From contig NZ_CP116413.1 in assembly GCF_030064675.1 (NCBI RefSeq), positions 1,025,001 to 1,089,000 of the forward strand: a DNA stretch of 64,000 nt. The letters are read 5' to 3'. A program made the position numbers and the translations under genes. Positions within the stretch are counted from its first letter, which is position 1. Every line of letters starts with the position of its first letter. This stretch comes from Crossiella sp. CA-258035 (GTDB lineage: Bacteria; Actinomycetota; Actinomycetes; Mycobacteriales; Pseudonocardiaceae). A model generated the notes under the pieces. The model ran no database searches. It saw nothing but the letters and a program-made list of their open reading frames with translations, and had not been told where the DNA came from. Below, in pieces: positions 10,808 to 59,930 of the stretch.

Positions 10808-11227
10808 ATGTCACAAGCCCTGGGTGCGCCGCGCGCGGTGCGCCTCGCCGGTCTGCTGGTCGGGTTGCAGGGCCTGGCGGGTGTGGTCCTGGTGGTCGCC
10901 CTGCTGGTCCGCGCGCTCAACGGCGCGCCCAAACCGGGCAACGTCTTCGGTGAGGCCGGGTACTTCGCGATCCTGACCGCCGCGGTCATCGCCACCGCCG
11001 TCGGGCTGGCGCGCGGCAAGCGCTGGGCCCGCTCGCCGGCGGTGGTGGTGCAGCTGCTGCTGCTCGGCGTGGCCTGGTACACCCTCGGGCCGTCCGGGCG
11101 CTGGCTGATCGGCTCGCTGGCCGCGGTCTACTGCGTGAGCGTGCTGGTGCTGCTGTTCAGCACGCACGCGCGGGCCTGGGTGCTCGGCATCGGGCCCTAC
11201 GACGACTCCGCCGACCAGAAGTCGTAG
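10808..11227 (+). CDS. Conserved four-helix membrane protein
   Basis: A 139-residue integral membrane protein with four hydrophobic segments (residues ~12-36, ~52-67, ~80-93 and ~100-119) and a charged C-terminus. It matches the actinobacterial family represented by Rv3217c in size, topology and location. A TAGCCT hexamer at 10796-10801 would place the transcription start on the ATG itself, so a leaderless mRNA is likely. No function is known. Confidence 0.75.
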   Translation: MSQALGAPRAVRLAGLLVGLQGLAGVVLVVALLVRALNGAPKPGNVFGEAGYFAILTAAVIATAVGLARGKRWARSPAVVVQLLLLGVAWYTLGPSGRWLIGSLAAVYCVSVLVLLFSTHARAWVLGIGPYDDSADQKS

Positions 11228-11360: not shown

Positions 11361-12182
11361 ATGATCAGCGAGCAGATGGTGCCGCAGTTGTTCGGCGACG
11401 AGGTCTGCGACCGGAACGGCGCCAAGATCGGCAAGGTCGGCCAGGTCTACCTGGAGGAGGGCACCGGGCGGCCTGCGTGGGCGACCGTGCGCACCGGCCT
11501 GTTCGGTCTGAAGGAGAGCTTCGTTCCGCTCGACCAGGCCAGCCTGGAAGGTGACACGTTGCGGGTCGCGGTGACCAAGGACCAGGTCAGCGACGCACCC
11601 CGGATGGACGCCGCGGGCCGGCTGTCCAGCGAGGACGAGCAGCAGCTCTACGACTACTACGGCATGCGCTACCCGGCGGTGCCCGGCCCGCGCCAGGACA
11701 CCCAGGCGGGCCGGTCCCGGACGCCCGCGACGGCGCACGACCGGGCGGCGCACGACCGGGCGGCGCACGACCGGACCGCCGCGGACGGGCGGGACGACGC
11801 GATGACCCGCTCGGAGGAGCGGCTCAAGGTCGGCGCGGAGACCACGGAGACCGGCCGGGTCCGGCTGCGCAAGTACGTGGTGACCGAGGAACAGCAGGTC
11901 ACCGTGCCGGTGCGGCACGAGGAGGTCCGGATCGAGCGAGAGCCGATCACCGAGGCCAACCGGGACCAGGCCATGTCCGGTGCCGAGATCAGCGAGGCCG
12001 AGCACGAGGTCACGCTGCACGCGGAGCGGCCGGTGGTGCGCACCGAGGCGGTGCCGGTGGAGCGGGTGCGGCTGGCCAAGGAGACGGTCACCGAGGAGGA
12101 GACCGTCTCCGGGCAGGTGCGCAAGGAACAGATCGAGGTCACCGAGGAACAAGCGCGGGATCGGCGGGATCGCAAGCGCTGA
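11361..12182 (+). CDS. PRC-barrel and DUF2382 (YsnF/AvaK) domain protein
   Basis: A 273-residue cytoplasmic protein. Residues ~1-100 are a PRC-barrel-like domain (LFGDEVCDRNGAKIGKVGQVY, KESFVPLDQA). A low-complexity linker with an AHDR repeat follows (residues ~118-145). The C-terminal ~110 residues form a DUF2382 domain with its usual repeated E-rich strands (EEQQVTVPVRHEEVRIEREPI, HAERPVVRTEAVPVERVRL). Proteins of this type are linked to general stress in other bacteria; the role is not defined. ATG at 11361 has GGGAGGACGGAAG upstream. The 3' end overlaps the convergent EamA gene by 44 bp. Confidence 0.85.
   Translation: MISEQMVPQLFGDEVCDRNGAKIGKVGQVYLEEGTGRPAWATVRTGLFGLKESFVPLDQASLEGDTLRVAVTKDQVSDAPRMDAAGRLSSEDEQQLYDYYGMRYPAVPGPRQDTQAGRSRTPATAHDRAAHDRAAHDRTAADGRDDAMTRSEERLKVGAETTETGRVRLRKYVVTEEQQVTVPVRHEEVRIEREPITEANRDQAMSGAEISEAEHEVTLHAERPVVRTEAVPVERVRLAKETVTEEETVSGQVRKEQIEVTEEQARDRRDRKR
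11734..11778 (+). repeat. Three 15-bp tandem repeats in the DUF2382 gene linker
   Basis: The unit CGCACGACCGGGCGG occurs twice exactly and a third time with changes at its end. It encodes AHDRA steps in the linker between the PRC-barrel and DUF2382 domains, keeps the frame, and could vary in copy number by slippage. Confidence 0.8.
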
Positions 12183-13077
12183 GCCGGGCTGGGCCGGGGT
12201 GCGGCGCTCGTCGTCGCGCCCCGGCCTTGACCACGCCGGAGGCCAGTGCGACGCCGAGGATGACCAGCGCGGCGGCGGCCAGCCGCAGCGGGGTCAGCGC
12301 CTCGCCGAGCAGCAGCGCGGCCGAGGACATGCCGAACACCGGCACCAGCAGGGAGAACGGCGCCACCGCGGTGGCCGGGTAGACCCGCAGCAGGAAACCC
12401 CAGATGCCGAATCCGGCCAGGGTGGCCGCCCAGCCCACGTAAAGCACCGCGCCGATGCCGGCGAAGTCCAGGTGCGCCAACGCGTTCAGCCCGCTGTCCA
12501 CGCCTTCGAAGGCGGCGGAGAGGGCGAGCAGTGGCAGGATCGGCACCGCGCTGACCCACACCATGAACCGCAGCATGTCCGGCGGGGCCGCGTACCGGGT
12601 GATGATGTTGGTCAGGCTCCACACCGCGGCCGCGCCCACCACCATGAGCAGCGCGCCCACCGGGCTGTCCGCGCCGTAGTCCACGACCACCAGCACCATG
12701 CCGGCCAGCGCGATCCCGGTGCCGGCCAGCCGCAGCGGGGTGGGCCGCTCCTTGAGCAGCAGCGTGGCGAAGAGCACGGTGAACAGCACCTGGCTCTGCA
12801 ACACCAGTGAGGACAGCCCGGCCGGCGCGCCGGCGTACATGCCGCCGAAGAGCAGGCCGAACTTGACCACGCCCAGGGTCAGCCCCATCAGCAGCACCCA
12901 GCGCCAGGCCACCCGGGGCGAGCCGACGAAGAACAGCGCGGGCAGCGCCGCGGCGGCGAAGCGCAGGGCGGAGAACAGGAACGGGGGTACCTCGGCCAGG
13001 CCGATCTGGATGACCACGAAGTTGAGGCCCCAGATCAGGGCGACCAGTACGGCGAGGGCGAGGTGCGCGGGCTTCAC
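12139..13077 (-). CDS. EamA (DMT) family transporter
   Basis: A ~312-residue drug/metabolite transporter with two EamA repeats and ten predicted membrane helices. Visible parts include HLALAVLVALIWGLNFVVIQ (helix 1 with the WGxNF motif), PALFFVGSPRVAWR, LGGMYAGAPAGLSSLVLQSQ-type loops and, in the second repeat, WAATLAGFGIWGFLLR and PVFGMSSAALLLGE. Substrate is unknown; family members export amino acids, purines or drugs. GTG at 13077 is preferred because it starts right before helix 1. It is divergent from a LysR gene that probably regulated it. Confidence 0.88.
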   Translation of the reverse strand: MKPAHLALAVLVALIWGLNFVVIQIGLAEVPPFLFSALRFAAAALPALFFVGSPRVAWRWVLLMGLTLGVVKFGLLFGGMYAGAPAGLSSLVLQSQVLFTVLFATLLLKERPTPLRLAGTGIALAGMVLVVVDYGADSPVGALLMVVGAAAVWSLTNIITRYAAPPDMLRFMVWVSAVPILPLLALSAAFEGVDSGLNALAHLDFAGIGAVLYVGWAATLAGFGIWGFLLRVYPATAVAPFSLLVPVFGMSSAALLLGEALTPLRLAAAALVILGVALASGVVKAGARRRAPHPGPARLSACDPADPALVPR

Positions 13078-13149
13078 GGCACCAGCCTCACCCGGCGGAG
13101 AGTTAAGCACCAGCGAAATCCACTACGCGGATCTGTTTAGTATTGCTTC

Positions 13150-14074
13150 ATGCTCGATCTCGGCAGACTGCGCGCCCTGCACGCCGTCGCGGTGCACGGC
13201 TCGGTCAACGCGGCCGCCGCCGCCCTCGGCTACACCCCCTCCGCGGTGTCCCAGCAGCTGGCCAAGCTGGAACGCGAGACCGGCACCGTGCTGCTGGAAC
13301 GCCGCGGCCGCGGCATCGCGCTCACCGACGCCGCGGAGGACCTGGCAGGCACCGCCAAGCAGGTGCTGGCCCTGGTCGAACAGGCCGAGGTGCGGCTGGA
13401 GGAGCAGCGCGGCACGCCGATCGGACGGCTCAGCGTGGCCACCTTCGCCACCGCGGTCCGTGGCCTGATGCCCGCCCCGCTGGCCGAGCTGGCGCGGGCC
13501 TACCCGGAGCTGGACGTGCGGCTGACCGAGCTGGACCCGCACCTGGCGGTGGACCTGGTGGCCCGCGGCGAGCTGGACCTGGCCGTGGTGCACGACTGGG
13601 AGAACACCCCGCTGGCCATGCCGGAGGGGCTGGCCCGCACCGACATCGGGGTGGACGTGGCCGATGTGGCTGCTGCACCAGGACCACCCGCTGGCCACCC
13701 GGACCGAGCTGAGCCCGCTGGAGCTCATCGGCGCGCGCTGGATCTGCCAGCCGCCGGGGTCGATCTGCCACGACTGGCTGATCCGCACCCTGCGCGGCGG
13801 CGGGGTGGAACCGGTGCTCGCGCACCAGGTCACCGAGTACCAGTCGCAGCTGGCGCTGGCCGCGCGCGGGCTCGGCGTGTGCCTGCTGCCCCGGCTCGGG
13901 CGGGGGCCGGTGCCCGCGGGCGTGGTGGTCCGGCCGCTGGTCCCGACGCCGACCAGGCGGTTGTTCGCGGTGTGGCGGCAGCAGGCCACCCGGCGGCCGG
14001 CGATCGCGGCCACGGTGGCCGCGCTGCGCGCGCACTGGGCCGATCGGGACACCGCCGATGCGCCAAAGGGTTGA
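13150..14074 (+). pseudogene. LysR family regulator broken by a +1 frameshift
   Basis: The N-terminal part reads as a normal LysR protein (LRALHAVAVHGSVNAAAAALG, PSAVSQQLAKLERETGTVLL, then the start of the effector domain). At 13666-13669 (GTGG) the frame changes by one base. The first frame then becomes Ala/Gly/Arg-rich nonsense to 14085, while proper LysR sequence resumes one frame over (LLHQDHPLATRTELSPLEL, GARWICQPPGSICHDWLIR, LALAARGLGVCLLPRLG) and stops at 14074. Removing one G restores ADVLLHQDHPLA and a ~307-residue protein. Either a true recent pseudogene or a sequencing error. The TAGTAT hexamer at 13138-13143 would give a leaderless start at the ATG. ATCC-N7-GGAT at 13118-13132 is a possible operator shared with the EamA gene. 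Confidence 0.85.
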
Positions 14075-14128
14075 TCACTCAATGAAGGGACTGGGAGCGC
14101 CCGCGCGTGTCGTGCTCCAATCGATGTT

Positions 14129-14842
14129 GTGACGCCACCCGGTCAGATCCCGCGACCGCGCACGTCCGTCGGCCGGGCCGCGCACGCGCTGCTCGGCCTT
14201 GGCCCCTTCGACCAGGTCGACGAGGAGCTGTTCGGCTACGCCAGCTGGGCAGCCGCCAACTTCACCGCGCTGCACGTGGTGGTCGTCGACCTGCCCGCCG
14301 TGCACACCTACCGCGCGGTCGGCTACAAGACCCACCGCGCCCTGCACAAGGCGCGCAGCGAGGGCAAGCGCCTGCACACCAGGGCCCGGCGCGCGCTGGC
14401 CGCGCTGGCGCTGCCCGGCTCGCTGGTGGTGCCCTGGGCCGAGCTGGCCGCCCGCTACCGCTACCGCCTGCTGTTCGAGCAGGTCAGGCAGGCCTACGAG
14501 AGCAACCCGGTGTTCCGCGCGGCCTGCCTGCGGGCCACCGCGACCATGCTGGCCGACCGGGTGCCCGGCGCGCTGTGCTCCCGAGGGCAGGTGCAGGTCG
14601 CGGCGCACTCGCTGCTGGCCGAGCTGCCGCTGGCCATCGACGGCGCCGGCATCCTCGGCGTGCCCGAGTCCACCCGCTGCCAGCCCCGGCCGCTGGAGCT
14701 GGCCGAGGTGCTCGCCGCCGCCCCGCCCGAGCTGTGCCCGCGCCCCGGCCAGGACTCGCTGACCCTGCGGACCATCGCGGCCCGGCGGGCGGAGGTCCCT
14801 GGCAGGATCCACGTCCATGGCAATGGTTCGCGAGGTCGCTGA
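14129..14842 (+). CDS. Cyclodipeptide synthase-like protein lacking the catalytic serine
   Basis: A 237-residue protein that aligns along its length with tRNA-dependent cyclodipeptide synthases, which make cyclic dipeptides from two aminoacyl-tRNAs. Matching parts are HALLGLGPF (10-28), VVVVDLPAVHTYRAVGY (50-66), the basic helix ALHKARSEGKRLHTRARRAL (71-90) that holds tRNA in the family, YESNPVFRAACL (123-134) and SLLAELPLAIDGAGILGVPE (161-180). Against AlbC, recalled from memory, the nucleophile Ser37 aligns with Gln29 or a gap, Tyr178 with Ser161 and Tyr202 with Gln185, while Glu182 is kept as Glu165. It may therefore be a non-catalytic relative or use other chemistry. GTG start at 14129 has no clear ribosome site. 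It overlaps the DinB gene by 26 bp; no cyclodipeptide-tailoring gene is near. Confidence 0.7.
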   Translation: MTPPGQIPRPRTSVGRAAHALLGLGPFDQVDEELFGYASWAAANFTALHVVVVDLPAVHTYRAVGYKTHRALHKARSEGKRLHTRARRALAALALPGSLVVPWAELAARYRYRLLFEQVRQAYESNPVFRAACLRATATMLADRVPGALCSRGQVQVAAHSLLAELPLAIDGAGILGVPESTRCQPRPLELAEVLAAAPPELCPRPGQDSLTLRTIAARRAEVPGRIHVHGNGSRGR

Positions 14843-15335
14843 CGAACGGGACGCCCTGCTGGCCTTCCTGGCCGAACAACGCGCCGCGCTGCGCCGCTCG
14901 GTGCTCAACCTGGCCGAGGAGACCGCCGCCAGCCGCCCGCTGACCAGCGAGCTGACCCTGGCCGGGCTGGTCAAGCACGCGGTCAGCGTGGAGCGGAACT
15001 GGACCAACCTGCTGCAGGGCCGCCCGGCCGACGGCCGCCCAGGCCACGCCCTGGACCCCGGCGAGACCCTGCCGCAGGCGCTGGCCGACCTGGCCGAGGT
15101 CGCCGCCACCACCGAGGCGCTGGTGCCGGGGCTGGACCTGGACCGCGAGGTGGACCTGGACCTGCTGAACCACCCGATGGTCAAGGGCAAGACCCGCACC
15201 GCCCGCTGGGTGCTGTTCCACCTGGTCGCCGAGTTCGCCCGGCACGCCGGCCACGCCGACCTGCTGCGCGAGTCCCTGGACGGGGCGACCGCCTACGAGC
15301 TGGTCGCCGCCGCCGGGGACCCGCTGATCACGTGA
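14817..15335 (+). CDS. DinB/DUF664 family protein
   Basis: A 172-residue four-helix-bundle protein of the DinB superfamily, DUF664 branch common in actinobacteria, some of whose members are mycothiol-dependent transferases. Visible signatures are the N-terminal helix LLAFLAEQRAALRRSVLNL, LTLAGLVKHAVSVERNWTNLL with metal-ligand His55, and RWVLFHLVAEFARHAGHADLLRE with the HxxxxxRHAGHAD metal site. ATG at 14817 overlaps the upstream cyclodipeptide-synthase-like gene, implying co-expression; ATG at 14823 is an alternative. The substrate is unknown. The 3' end overlaps the convergent GNAT gene by 8 bp. Confidence 0.88.
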   Translation: MAMVREVADERDALLAFLAEQRAALRRSVLNLAEETAASRPLTSELTLAGLVKHAVSVERNWTNLLQGRPADGRPGHALDPGETLPQALADLAEVAATTEALVPGLDLDREVDLDLLNHPMVKGKTRTARWVLFHLVAEFARHAGHADLLRESLDGATAYELVAAAGDPLIT

Positions 15336-17824: not shown

Positions 17825-17879
17825 CAGCCAGTCCTTGATCGTCCTTAGCCTTCTGCCCACTACCGGGGAGGAGGACCTT

Positions 17880-18140
17880 GTGGGCACGCGCGCCAACGGC
17901 ACGACCGACGTCGTCGCCGCGATTCTCATGGGCTTGGACGACGTCGCGGAGAAGGCTCGGGAGATCAATCGTCGCCAGCTCAGCCGGAGCACCCGGGTCA
18001 GGGACCCGATCCTGGTCACCCTGACCGCACACCAGGAGCTGCTCTTCGTCAGCCAGCTGACCAACCTCGCGCGACTGTTCAGGCTGCACCTTGACGAGCG
18101 GGCGCCGGAGGAGGAAGGCGAGTCCGCCGAGCACCCCTGA
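17880..18140 (+). CDS. Small hypothetical protein downstream of XRE regulator
   Basis: An 86-residue soluble protein not recognised as a named family. GTG at 17880 is chosen because GGGGAGGAGGA lies right upstream, a very strong ribosome site. The sequence is mainly helical (TTDVVAAILMGLDDVAEKAREI, VTLTAHQELLFVSQLTNLARLF) with an acidic tail rich in Glu. It is probably the target or partner of the XRE regulator. The helical pattern and acidic tail are compatible with a small binding or antitoxin-like protein, but nothing proves this. Confidence 0.65.
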   Translation: MGTRANGTTDVVAAILMGLDDVAEKAREINRRQLSRSTRVRDPILVTLTAHQELLFVSQLTNLARLFRLHLDERAPEEEGESAEHP

Positions 18141-56443: not shown

Positions 56444-56480
56444 ATCTCACTCGACAAGATTCTTGCTAGGCGAGTTAGAT
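56444..56480. promoter_or_regulatory. Extended dyad upstream of first glycosyltransferase
   Basis: ATCTCACTCG (56444-56453) and CGAGTTAGAT (56471-56480) are inverted repeats matching at 9 of 10 positions, with inner CAAG-ATT-CTTG at 56455-56465. It ends 34 bp before the start codon. It could be an operator or a leader hairpin; no regulator gene is adjacent. Confidence 0.5.
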
Positions 56481-56514
56481 GGGCAGGGAGGGTGATCGAC
56501 CACTGGGAGGAAAC

Positions 56515-57654
56515 ATGCGCGTCCTGTTCACCAGCTCGGCCGGGCTCGGCCACCTGTTCCCGATGATCCCCACCGCCTGGGCGCTGCGCGCGGCCGGGCA
56601 CGAGGTGCGGGTCGCCACCACCGGCGGCGCGGCCACCGCCGCGGCCAACGCCGGCCTCACCGTGGTCGAGTCGGCTCCCGGCGTCGTCTGGGAGGACGAG
56701 GTCCAGCGCGTGATGAAGGAGCACTTCGGCGACGCGGGCATCCCGGCCGCCCAGCCCGGCCAGCCCCGGCCCGACAGCATGGCCTCCGCCGGCGTCATGT
56801 TCGCCCACATGGCCGACCTGGCCACCGACGAGACCGTCCGCCAGGCCCAGCTGTGGCAGCCGGACCTGGTCATCTACGACCTGACCGACGCGGTCGGCCC
56901 GATGGTGGCCGCCAAGCTCGGCATCCCCTGCGTGCAGCACGGCTTCGGCCTGACCAACGCCAGCGAGCTGTTCGACGGGATGGTGCCCAACCTCGGCGGC
57001 ACCTTCGAGCGGCTGGGCATCGACGGCCTCGCCGCCCCGGTGACCGCGATCGACCTGGCCCCGCCGAGCCTGGAGGGCGAGCTCAACGGCATCAGCACCC
57101 GCTACGTCGCCTACAACGGCGGCGCGGTGCTGCCCGAATGGCTCTCCGGGCCCAAGGAGCGGCCGCGGATCGTGATCACCATGGGCACCGCGATGGCGGT
57201 CATGGTCGGCCTGGGCCCGTGGCGGGCCATCCTGGACGCGGCCGCCGAGGCCGACGCCGAGCTGGTGCTGGCCGCCGGGTCCACCGACCTGTCCGGCCTG
57301 GACCTGCCCGCGCACGCCAGGGTGATCGAGTACGTGCCGCTGAGCGCGCTGCTGCCGGTCTGCGACGCGCTGGTGCACCACGGCGGCTCTGGCAGCACGC
57401 TGACCGCGGTGGCCTCGGGCGTGACCCAGCTGATCGTGCCGCAGGGCGCGGACCAGTTCTACAACGCCGAGCGGATCGACAAGCGCGGCGCGGGCCTGAG
57501 CGCCGAGCACGAGGGCGTCACCGGCGAGCAGCTGCACCGCCTGCTGCACGACGAGAAGCTCAAGGCCACCGTGGCCGAGGTGCGCGCGGAGATGGCCGCG
57601 ATGCCCAGCCCGGCCGCGCTGGTGCCGCAGCTGGCGGAGATCGCGGGACACTGA
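56515..57654 (+). CDS. GT1-family glycosyltransferase (tandem copy 1)
   Basis: A 379-residue GT-B enzyme of the macrolide/antibiotic glycosyltransferase type. The N-terminal domain has catalytic-type His13 in AGLGHLFPM and acceptor-side motifs (PDLVIYDLTDAVGPMVAAKL). The C-terminal donor domain has ERPRIVITMGTA, VIEYVPLSALLP, and the diphosphate-binding signature HHGGSGSTLTAVASG followed by QLIVPQGADQFYNAERI. ATG at 56515 has GGGAGGAAA upstream. First of three close paralogues. The sugar donor and acceptor are unknown. Confidence 0.92.
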   Translation: MRVLFTSSAGLGHLFPMIPTAWALRAAGHEVRVATTGGAATAAANAGLTVVESAPGVVWEDEVQRVMKEHFGDAGIPAAQPGQPRPDSMASAGVMFAHMADLATDETVRQAQLWQPDLVIYDLTDAVGPMVAAKLGIPCVQHGFGLTNASELFDGMVPNLGGTFERLGIDGLAAPVTAIDLAPPSLEGELNGISTRYVAYNGGAVLPEWLSGPKERPRIVITMGTAMAVMVGLGPWRAILDAAAEADAELVLAAGSTDLSGLDLPAHARVIEYVPLSALLPVCDALVHHGGSGSTLTAVASGVTQLIVPQGADQFYNAERIDKRGAGLSAEHEGVTGEQLHRLLHDEKLKATVAEVRAEMAAMPSPAALVPQLAEIAGH

Positions 57655-57727
57655 CCCCCTGAATGGTTCCGGCGGGCGGGCGTCCTTGGGGGCCGCCCGC
57701 CGCCGGAGCCGCGACCGGGGAGTCATC

Positions 57728-58816
57728 ATGCGGGTGCTGGCGATCAGTTCGATGGGACTCGGGCACCTGTTCCCGATGGTCCCGACCCTGTGGGCGCTGC
57801 GCGCGGCCGGGCACGAGGTGCTGCTGCTGAGCTCGGCGGCGGGTGCCACCGCGGGCGCGAACGCGGGCCTGCCGGTGGTGGAGGCCGCGCCGGGGGTGGA
57901 CTGGGACGCCGAGCTGGCCGATCCCGAGGTGCCGGTGGACCTGCTGACCAGGGTGGCCAGGCGGTTCGCCAGGATCACCGAGCTGATCAGCGACGAGGCC
58001 GCCCGGCAGGTGGAGTTCTGGCGGCCGGACCTGATCGTGCACGAGCTGCTCGACGCCACCGGCCCGCTGCTCGCGGCCAGGTACGGCATCCCCTGCGTGC
58101 ACCACGGCTTCGGCATCACCTCGGTCGGCCCGCTGTTCGACCGGATGCGGGACTTCCTCGGCGCGACCATGGCCAGGCACGGCGTCGAGCAGCTGGCCAC
58201 CCCGGCCACCACGATCGACATCGCCCCGCCCAGCCTCGGCGGCGACCTGGGCGGCCTGCGGGTGCGGTACGTGCCCTACAACGGCGGCGCGGTGCTGCCG
58301 GACTGGCTGGCCCGGCCACGGGAGCGGCCGCGGATCGTGGTCACCATGGGCACCGTGCTGGCCATGGACGACGAGCCGTGGCGGAGCATCCTGGCCGCGG
58401 CCCGGGACACCGGGGCCGAACTGCTGCTGGCCGCGGGGTCGACCAGCCTGGCCAAGCTGGGTGAGCTGCCACCGCACACCAGGGTGATCGGGTACGTGCC
58501 GCTGAGCGCGCTGCTGCCGGTCAGCGAGGCCGTCGTGCACCACGGCGGCTCCGGCAGCACGCTCACCGCGCTGGCCTGCGGCGTGCCCCAGCTGGTGGTG
58601 CCGCAGGGCGCGGACCAGTTCTACAACGGCCAGCGGATCGCCGCCCGCGGCGTGGGACTGACCGCGGAGGGCACCGGCGTGACCGCCGAGCAGCTGCACC
58701 GGCTGCTGCACGACCAGGAGATCAAGACCGCCATCGCGGAGGTGCGGGCCGAGCTGGCCGCGATGCCCAGCCCGGCGGAACTGGTGCCGGCCCTGGCGGC
58801 CATTGCTCAAACTTGA
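57728..58816 (+). CDS. GT1-family glycosyltransferase (tandem copy 2)
   Basis: A 362-residue paralogue of its neighbours. Shared landmarks: His13 in MGLGHLFPM, PYNGGAVLPDWLARPRERP, VIGYVPLSALLP, and HHGGSGSTLTALACG with VPQGADQFYNGQRI. It is shorter by 17 residues, mainly in the acceptor-side loop after WDAELADP, which differs from copies 1 and 3 and suggests another acceptor. ATG at 57728 has GGGGAG 6 nt upstream, 73 bp after copy 1. Confidence 0.92.
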   Translation: MRVLAISSMGLGHLFPMVPTLWALRAAGHEVLLLSSAAGATAGANAGLPVVEAAPGVDWDAELADPEVPVDLLTRVARRFARITELISDEAARQVEFWRPDLIVHELLDATGPLLAARYGIPCVHHGFGITSVGPLFDRMRDFLGATMARHGVEQLATPATTIDIAPPSLGGDLGGLRVRYVPYNGGAVLPDWLARPRERPRIVVTMGTVLAMDDEPWRSILAAARDTGAELLLAAGSTSLAKLGELPPHTRVIGYVPLSALLPVSEAVVHHGGSGSTLTALACGVPQLVVPQGADQFYNGQRIAARGVGLTAEGTGVTAEQLHRLLHDQEIKTAIAEVRAELAAMPSPAELVPALAAIAQT

Positions 58817-58829
58817 GTATGTTGGTGCC

Positions 58830-59930
58830 ATGCGCGTTCTGCTGACAAGCACCCCTGGTCTCGGCCACCTCTTCCCGCTGATCTCCACCGCATGGGCGCT
58901 CCGGGCCGCCGGCCACGAGGTGCGGGTGGCCACCACCGGCGCCGCGGCCACCGCGGCCGCGAACGCGGGCCTGACCGTGGTCGAGGCCGCGCCGGGGGTG
59001 GACCTGGACGCCGAGATCGCCCGCCTGGTCGCGGCCGAACCCGAGCCGGCGCGGGACGAGCAGTCCCGGCCGGACACCATCGCGCTGGCCGGCCGGTACT
59101 TCGCGCTGTTCGCGGAGCTGATGCTGGCCGAGTCCCTGCGCCAGGCCCGGCTGTGGCAGCCGGACCTGGTGGTCTACGAGCTGTGCGACGCGACCGGGCC
59201 GATCATCGCCGCCAAGCTCGGCATCCCCTGTGTGGCACACGGGTTCGGCTTCAGCGGCGGGCACGGGCTGATCGAGCTGATCCACGGCAACCTGGGCGAG
59301 TCGCTGGCGGTGCCGGAGACCGCGCTGGACCTGGCCCCGCCGAGCATGCACGGCGGCCTCAAGGGCATCAGTACCAGGTACGTGCCCTACAACGGCGGCG
59401 CGGTGCTGCCGGCGTGGCTGGCGGAGCCGAGGGAGCGGCCGCGGATCGTGGTCACCATGGGCACCGTCGACCAGGGCAGCGCGGACCTGAGCCCGTGGCA
59501 CAGAATTCTTGATGCGGCGCAGGGCCTGGACGCCGAGCTGGTGCTGGCCGCCGGACCGTGGGACCTCTCCGCGCTGGAGCTGCCCGAGCACGCCAGGGTG
59601 ATCGGCTACCTGCCGCTGACCGCGCTGCTCGCGCGCAGCGACGCGGCCATCCACCACGGCGGCTCCGGCAGCACGCTGACCGCGCTGGTGGCCGGCATCC
59701 CGCAGCTGCTCATGCCCTACGGCGCGGACCAGTTCATCAACGCCGACCTGGTGGCCAAGCGCGGTGTCGGCCTGGTCGCCGAGCACAGCGGGGTGACCTC
59801 GGCGCAGCTGGCCGGACTGCTGCACGACGTCGAGCTCAAGGCCGCGGTGGCCGAGGTCCAGGCGGAGATCGCGGCCCTGCCCAGCCCGGCGGAGCTGGTG
59901 CCGCACCTGGAGGTCATCGCGGGCCGCTGA
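58830..59930 (+). CDS. GT1-family glycosyltransferase (tandem copy 3)
   Basis: A 366-residue third paralogue: His13 in PGLGHLFPL, VYELCDATGPIIAAKLGIPC, PYNGGAVLPAWLAEPRERP, VIGYLPLTALLARSDAA, and HHGGSGSTLTALVAG. The donor-loop PQG of copies 1 and 2 is PYG here (MPYGADQFINADL), which may alter sugar specificity. The ATG at 58830 lies 13 bp after copy 2 and has no good Shine-Dalgarno. CTCAAACTTGAG spans 58806-58817 at the copy 2 stop. Its end overlaps the convergent DUF202 gene by 17 bp. Confidence 0.92.
   Translation: MRVLLTSTPGLGHLFPLISTAWALRAAGHEVRVATTGAAATAAANAGLTVVEAAPGVDLDAEIARLVAAEPEPARDEQSRPDTIALAGRYFALFAELMLAESLRQARLWQPDLVVYELCDATGPIIAAKLGIPCVAHGFGFSGGHGLIELIHGNLGESLAVPETALDLAPPSMHGGLKGISTRYVPYNGGAVLPAWLAEPRERPRIVVTMGTVDQGSADLSPWHRILDAAQGLDAELVLAAGPWDLSALELPEHARVIGYLPLTALLARSDAAIHHGGSGSTLTALVAGIPQLLMPYGADQFINADLVAKRGVGLVAEHSGVTSAQLAGLLHDVELKAAVAEVQAEIAALPSPAELVPHLEVIAGR

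Follow-up and report, generated by a model that had tools for sequence, protein, structure and literature searches.

A conserved Crossiella homolog of cyclodipeptide synthases that lacks the catalytic serine and both catalytic tyrosines

The psCDPS locus and its family membership

The window, by which we mean the whole 64,000-nucleotide stretch of Crossiella DNA analyzed here, comes from a 9.17 Mb genome and carries an open reading frame (ORF) for a homolog of cyclodipeptide synthases (CDPSs) that we call psCDPS. The gene order across this locus in Crossiella runs from DAGK through genes for a membrane protein, a PRC/DUF2382 protein, an EamA transporter and a LysR-type regulator to psCDPS, which is followed by genes for an MST protein, a GNAT protein, a histidine phosphatase and an HTH protein, and then by a nickel SOD (PF09055), a small ORF that by eye resembles an S26 peptidase and an RmlC-type epimerase. 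Five Crossiella genomes were found, namely those of the window (G000), SN42 (G237, labeled as the same species) and S99.2 (G001), as well as G002 and G003; at the locus, the PRC/DUF2382 gene was not detected in S99.2 and G002, and the HTH gene was not detected in G002 and G003. The coordinates of the features discussed below are collected in Table 1.

Table 1 Features of the psCDPS locus, in window coordinates.
Feature	Position	Strand	Remarks
EamA transporter	12139..13110	-	divergent from lysR
LysR-type regulator upstream of psCDPS	13150..14074	+	two overlapping frames here; intact in four relatives
30-bp element between lysR and psCDPS	14087..14116	+	at most 1 of 30 bases different in five Crossiella genomes
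psCDPS, CDPS homolog without catalytic Ser and Tyr residues	14129..14842	+	237 aa
Codon Gly25, nucleophile column (AlbC S37)	14201..14203	+	Gly in 5/5 orthologs
Codon Asp28 (AlbC N40)	14210..14212	+	Asp in 5/5 orthologs; Asn in 37/37 canonical rows
Residues 54-82: end of a strand, turn and first part of basic helix (α4)	14288..14374	+	nearly invariant
Codon Ser161 (AlbC Y178)	14609..14611	+	Ser in 4 orthologs, Gly in 1
Codon Glu165 (AlbC E182)	14621..14623	+	sole kept residue of the catalytic four; Glu in 5/5
Codons Arg183 (P1 pocket, AlbC L200) to Gln185 (AlbC Y202)	14675..14683	+	
MST/DinB-fold protein (PF04978, Mycothiol-S-transferase)	14817..15335	+	next recognized downstream gene in 5/5 Crossiella genomes

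The split of the lysR frame in the window goes back to a single-base length difference, which could reflect a genuine mutation or faulty sequencing, and other genera also have EamA–LysR gene pairs, with neither psCDPS nor MST within 1.5 kb of them (L176–L180). In the window psCDPS overlaps the MST gene, but S99.2, G002 and G003 lack this overlap, and we therefore rejected a coupling of the two genes. An earlier note on this DNA, made from its letters alone, had remarked that psCDPS is not clustered with tailoring genes; a Pfam scan of its neighbors between 9.7 and 19.7 kb, leaving aside those at 10808-11227, 17835-18140 and about 18.7-19.0 kb, agrees with this remark and returned no P450, cyclodipeptide oxidase or methyltransferase.

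The psCDPS ORF is real and encodes a genuine CDPS homolog. It begins with a GTG codon, the most distant ortholog having ATG at the aligned start position, and its GC3 is 0.95. Both curated profiles for cyclodipeptide synthases match above their cut-offs, PF16715 with 126.9 bits over residues 13–211 (cut-off 27) and TIGR04539 with 137.9 bits (cut-off 45), and a phmmer search of PDB chains matched the CDPSs 3oqh, 2x9q, 6ztu, 7azu, 3oqv, 4q24 and 6ez3. The predicted structure, built from four sequences, is weak (mean pLDDT 65.2, pTM 0.61, residues 1–16 and 205–237 below 50). All 43 PDB matches that Foldseek returned for this model at E ≤ 0.001 are CDPSs, the best being 3oqi (E 7.7e-11), as expected of the CDPS Rossmann fold. 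The profile search and structure prediction, which the earlier note had proposed as checks, thus bear out the CDPS family fold that it had claimed. Class Ic aminoacyl-tRNA synthetases, namely TyrRS, have a related fold and give weak Foldseek matches from E 3.2e-3, but TyrRS has no sequence match with psCDPS (phmmer, E up to 1), is larger and carries out other chemistry.

Replacement of the active-site residues

Active-site positions are given in AlbC numbering, with the four catalytic residues and the NYH/XYP residue pairs following the accessible text of PMC13062777 and the P1 and C2 positions following that of PMC5816076. In alignments with 3oqh, 2x9q and 6ztu, the segment ‘GLGPF’ of psCDPS stands against ‘GISPF’ or ‘GVSPG’, which puts Gly25 in the column of the nucleophilic Ser37. 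The earlier note had correctly recognized that the serine is lost but had named Gln29 as its replacement; we rejected this assignment, as Gln29 aligns with AlbC S41, which follows N40, and varies between Gln, His and Gly among the orthologs. Its remaining assignments hold in the alignment on AlbC numbering, with Ser161 and Gln185 replacing Y178 and Y202, respectively, and Glu165 retained at the position of E182. Among the catalytic residues, the nucleophilic serine and both tyrosines are therefore absent from psCDPS and the glutamate is present.

Residues outside the catalytic four have changed as well. The column of AlbC H203 holds Pro186 in four genomes and Ile in one, and psCDPS belongs to neither the NYH (N40-Y202-H203) nor the XYP (X40-Y202-P203) subfamily, reading D28-Q185-P186 in four orthologs and D-Q-I in one. 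In the P1 pocket, the AlbC L200 column is occupied by Phe, Asn, Ser or Cys in 37 canonical rows and by Arg183 in psCDPS; both Arg183 and Gln185 are invariant in all five psCDPS orthologs and absent from the 37 canonical rows. Compared with the NYH-type CDPSs (AlbC/Snou-CDPS, Rv2275 and YvmC), psCDPS has the fold, the core sequence, the basic helix α4 and Glu182 in common, but lacks S37, N40, Y178, Y202 and H203, has a catalytic loop 1 that is two residues shorter and carries an arginine in the P1 pocket.

It is extremely unlikely that psCDPS is a functioning CDPS whose active site is unusual. Its score above the Pfam cut-off and the retention of Glu165 would fit such an enzyme, but the nucleophile and both tyrosines are gone together, and a Ser-to-Ala exchange alone inactivates known CDPSs, according to the accessible text of PMC7566563.

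Distribution and origin

Orthologs of psCDPS occur in all five Crossiella genomes, each with an open frame, at pairwise identities of 64–97%; the other four are 96, 82, 81 and 67% identical to the protein of the window. A survey of relatives for the same substitutions, which the earlier note had suggested, returned S37G, N40D, Y178S/G and Y202Q in every one of these genomes, the Ser161 column being Gly in one. Beyond Crossiella, all other matches at E ≤ 1e-18 in 390 searched genomes of the family are at most 38% identical, and a psCDPS profile found no further member among the 394 class genomes searched, the next match scoring 95.4 bits compared to 480.8 bits for psCDPS itself; the ten new distinct sequences from this class-wide search all read S-N-Y-E-Y at the five diagnostic columns. 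Across the family and class genomes searched, psCDPS was found in one genus only. The combined homolog set comprises 152 distinct rows, of which 132 have all five diagnostic columns and 20 partial rows were kept outside; among the 132, 122 read S-N-Y-E-Y, 5 are the psCDPS orthologs and the remaining 5 depart from this motif at one or two positions, in a survey that is incomplete, with DNA for 57 of 66 and 75 of 137 match rows (low scorers preferred) plus a few more. Spread of psCDPS by phage or plasmid was rejected, given that 50,697 phage records yielded 0 matches and that the 8 of 72,556 plasmid records that matched are only 30–35% identical.

Several homologs in this survey are of separate note. 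Two single sequences among the 132 rows also lack the serine and keep most other diagnostic residues, L165 with Ala (G382:C1:3562800-3564200) and L122 with Arg (G945:C2:733300-734700), while L137, L133 and L121 keep the serine and miss another diagnostic residue. Distant CDPS-like proteins that score 20–55 bits (L112, L113 and L114, also L109, L110 and L111, from family f18, and L076 from a genome of the window’s own order) retain a Ser, a Tyr and the Glu, have a profile match that ends at about position 172–197, and possibly constitute a separate subfamily. A contig from a viral collection, IMGVR_UViG_3300049926_000093 (L070), encodes a canonical S-N-Y-E-Y CDPS; the viral-contig searches run to enlarge the model alignment returned one CDPS in one case, none in a second, and in a third six matches of only 18–24 residues, which were left unused.

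The window’s genome also encodes a canonical S-N-Y-E-Y CDPS (L001, L064; G000:C1:669560-670216), about 370 kb from psCDPS, whose gene lies beside one for a purine/cytosine-type permease, itself next to a rhodanese-domain gene. This canonical enzyme is found in four of the five Crossiella genomes, G003 having psCDPS but no other PF16715 match. A topology that joins psCDPS and the canonical CDPS in one clade is rejected (p-AU 0.0005, for a grouping chosen after a quick tree had been seen and with 8 near-duplicate rows of 42 left out), and we therefore rejected psCDPS as a duplicate of Crossiella’s own canonical enzyme. The presence of both genes in four genomes would fit a psCDPS that serves as a regulatory or dummy partner of the canonical CDPS, but the distance between the two genes, their separate placement in the tree and the occurrence of psCDPS in G003 without any other PF16715 match make such a partnership highly improbable.

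The CDPSs of another genus, g27 (G255, G256, G258, G259, G260, G261 and G029), are 34–38% identical to psCDPS and have all five diagnostic residues S-N-Y-E-Y intact, whereas psCDPS keeps the glutamate only. In the two of these seven genomes whose context was compared over 15 kb (L193 and L194), the g27 gene is flanked by the DAGK/membrane-protein genes on one side and by the histidine-phosphatase gene on the other, in the same orientation as psCDPS; nickel SOD and RmlC genes were found downstream in L193 and not in L194, and no MST gene was found at the g27 locus. We also inspected 26 histidine-phosphatase loci outside Crossiella, drawn from the best 30 of 42 matches with 1.5 kb on each side: 25 have no CDPS match, the exception being G029 of genus g27, and 23 of these 25 have GNAT, DAGK, the membrane protein or nickel SOD alongside.

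Phylogenetic trees place psCDPS and the g27 CDPSs as sisters (89/84 with 34 rows; 86 SH-aLRT in a 63-row tree), a join of long branches of the kind that may be false. The shared chromosomal position and two residues common to both, E180 (7/7 in g27 versus 0/30 others) and W103 (7/7 versus 4/30), point the same way as the tree. On moderate tree support and position, psCDPS therefore looks like an ortholog of the g27 CDPS that lost catalysis in place. The ancestor would have been a stand-alone, catalytically complete CDPS encoded in the DAGK/membrane-protein to histidine-phosphatase interval; the Crossiella lineage would then have lost the nucleophile and both catalytic tyrosines, kept the fold and the basic helix, and fixed new residues. 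A serine-less lineage, set beside a relative from another genus that still has its full catalytic set in the matching chromosomal interval, would constitute a natural before-and-after pair.

Selection, the basic helix and the putative function of psCDPS

The first 208 codons of psCDPS are gap-free in all five genomes and comprise 71 identical codons, 52 with synonymous variation and 85 with an amino-acid change. Within residues 54–82, a stretch picked after inspection of the alignment, amino-acid changes affect only 2 of 29 codons, compared to 83 of 179 in the rest (Fisher p = 2.5e-5). We compared invariant fractions with those of five canonical CDPS groups (two of which share a row; least pair identities 57–76%). 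Helix α4 is invariant at 19 of 23 positions in psCDPS versus 0.43–0.74 in the canonical groups (best 17/23), catalytic loop 1 at 8 of 15, the lowest value, versus 0.71–0.82, and catalytic loop 2 at 21 of 30, at the low end of the canonical 0.70–0.93 (two groups also have 21/30). Judged from these alignments, catalytic loop 1 of psCDPS is relaxed and the region of the basic helix α4 is its best-kept part. The invariant basic residues of the helix are R70, K74, R76, R81, R85, R87 and R88; the positions of AlbC R91, R97 and R98 are no longer basic, being Ser77, His/Gln/Thr and Thr/Ala/Asn, respectively. Within residues 19–208, psCDPS has 37 invariant residues that no more than 3 of the 37 canonical rows share; some lie where the helix begins (K67, T68, H69 and L72), others in the pocket (R183 and Q185).

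Overall constraint on psCDPS is modest, as its NG86 dN/dS of 0.20–0.65 over ten pairs compares with 0.07–0.56 for EamA, 0.12–0.58 for GNAT, 0.38–0.83 for MST and 0.10–0.39 for the N-terminal part of LysR; the canonical Crossiella CDPS gives 0.07–0.21 (three pairs). The values of up to 0.65 with G003, the mild third-position excess between the window and G003 (166 of 630 positions differ; 52, 49 and 65 by codon position) and the relaxed catalytic loop 1 would all suit a dying gene under relaxed selection. The open frame in all five genomes speaks against decay, but a stop-free frame alone would not reject drift: in two sets of 1000 neutral simulations run to 26% DNA divergence, 128 and 61 runs also remained without stops. 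The same simulations do reject drift of psCDPS without constraint, since amino-acid identity averaged 0.51–0.52 and reached at most 0.59, versus the 0.66 observed between the window and G003, and none of the 2 x 1000 runs had two or fewer changes in residues 54–82. With lineage-specific residues fixed and the upstream 30-bp element conserved in addition, we consider a dying gene very unlikely.

This element has the same sequence in the window, S99.2 and G002, with SN42 and G003 each differing at one base, although psCDPS itself has diverged between the window and G003 to the extent given above. It is present as a single genomic copy at up to 3 mismatches, and no further copy at up to 8 mismatches was found beyond this locus in 0.95 Mb of compared loci. 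Its distance to the start codon is one base apart between window/SN42 and S99.2/G002 and differs more in G003, so the element does not lie in one conserved frame with psCDPS. It is likely a promoter or leader, with no consensus recognized: simple consensus searches of 13.9–15.5 kb returned no sigma-70 promoter or intrinsic terminator, and the one Rfam match nearby falls below the gathering score, on the other strand and in another place. A hairpin noticed by eye in the element was dropped because G003 breaks the pairing.

As far as its sequence tells, psCDPS is a CDPS homolog by profile and fold in which three of the four catalytic residues are missing, within a conserved and selected lineage. 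The view of the earlier note that it is a pseudo-enzyme is well supported by the near-identical replacements fixed in all five Crossiella genomes, by purifying selection and by the preservation of the basic-helix region. Replacement of the chemical machinery, together with a nearly unchanged basic helix, suggests retention for another use of charged tRNA, and our preferred reading, to which we assign a probability of roughly one half, is that psCDPS is a conserved aminoacyl-tRNA-binding pseudoenzyme. The acceptor arm of a charged tRNA would most likely be bound through the basic helix, and its amino group would be held by Glu165 in the remodeled P1 pocket (Arg183 and Gln185). Given that psCDPS cannot form the seryl-ester intermediate, it would hold or read out a charged tRNA rather than consume two for a diketopiperazine.

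The portions of the CDPS literature consulted describe the family as enzymes that divert charged tRNA from translation to diketopiperazines. Two mutants that lack the nucleophile, as psCDPS does, still bind aminoacyl-tRNA or its acceptor arm: Cglo-CDPS S32A is inactive and binds Phe-tRNA with a KD of 1.6 µM, better than uncharged tRNA (PMC7566563, accessible text), and Nbra-CDPS S34A was crystallized with an alanylated microhelix (PMC13062777, accessible text). Loss of the nucleophile can thus turn an aminoacyl-tRNA consumer into a holder, and by analogy aminoacyl-tRNA binding by psCDPS for sensing or transfer is plausible. Both mutants are laboratory-made and keep both tyrosines, unlike the natural psCDPS. 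Our search of the open-access literature, with subscription papers mostly outside it, found no account of such a natural protein; one family-wide survey removed sequences without the catalytic serine, as stated in the accessible text of PMC5816076.

Against the preferred reading, the excess of invariant positions in α4 is small (19 versus 17 of 23), several helix positions have lost their basic residue, catalytic loop 2 is as well conserved as in two canonical groups, the structural model is weak, overall constraint is modest and psCDPS was found in a single genus. In the Nocardia CDPS–RNA structure, as far as PMC13062777 is accessible, the equivalents of Y178 and Y202 contact the terminal adenosine A76, and strands β2 and β7 of this XYP enzyme grip the stem; for NYH enzymes, the accessible text of PMC7566563 gives the role of helix α4 in gripping RNA as a proposal. 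With Y178 and Y202 both gone, the tRNA 3′ end must dock differently on psCDPS or not at all, and by analogy their loss may weaken CCA docking. The loss of these A76-touching residues and the fixation of 37 new ones could mean that psCDPS has left tRNA and that the old fold binds a different partner, be it some other RNA, a protein or a small molecule, but the basic helix is the best-kept segment and its basic residues listed above are invariant, and we regard this departure from tRNA as unlikely.

A direct aminoacyl transferase, in which the amino acid in the P1 pocket would pass without a seryl ester, either straight to a small acceptor that occupies the C2 cleft or via a residue such as Cys150, is a rather unlikely alternative to the tRNA-binding pseudoenzyme. 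Such a transferase would account for the kept Glu165, for the pocket positions R183, Q185 and T139, which are replaced and fixed among the orthologs, for Cys150, which is invariant in psCDPS and found in none of the 37 canonical rows, and for the downstream MST-family gene in all five genomes, whose Pfam name implies mycothiol chemistry. However, the pocket positions G23, V51, V53 and A169 vary among the orthologs, the spacing between psCDPS and MST is not conserved, and the g27 locus has yielded no MST gene.

More tentatively, and with the odds somewhat against it, psCDPS may be a CDPS-derived protein with a new job on charged tRNA that involves no acyl-seryl enzyme, either as a charging reporter with a defined output or as an aminoacyl transferase that serves a new acceptor, non-covalently or by way of Cys150. 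This proposal overlaps both the preferred pseudoenzyme reading and the direct transferase and demands more than either. If true, it would represent a new fate of the CDPS fold, arisen in place, with the complete ortholog surviving in a related genus. The pair of psCDPS and its g27 counterpart would permit a direct test of a possible conversion of CDPSs into tRNA-charging sensors or transferases, and psCDPS offers a chance to study NYH-type RNA recognition separately from catalysis.

Elsewhere in the window, three consecutive ORFs at 56479-59930 have closely similar starts and, by eye, resemble macrolide-type glycosyltransferases.
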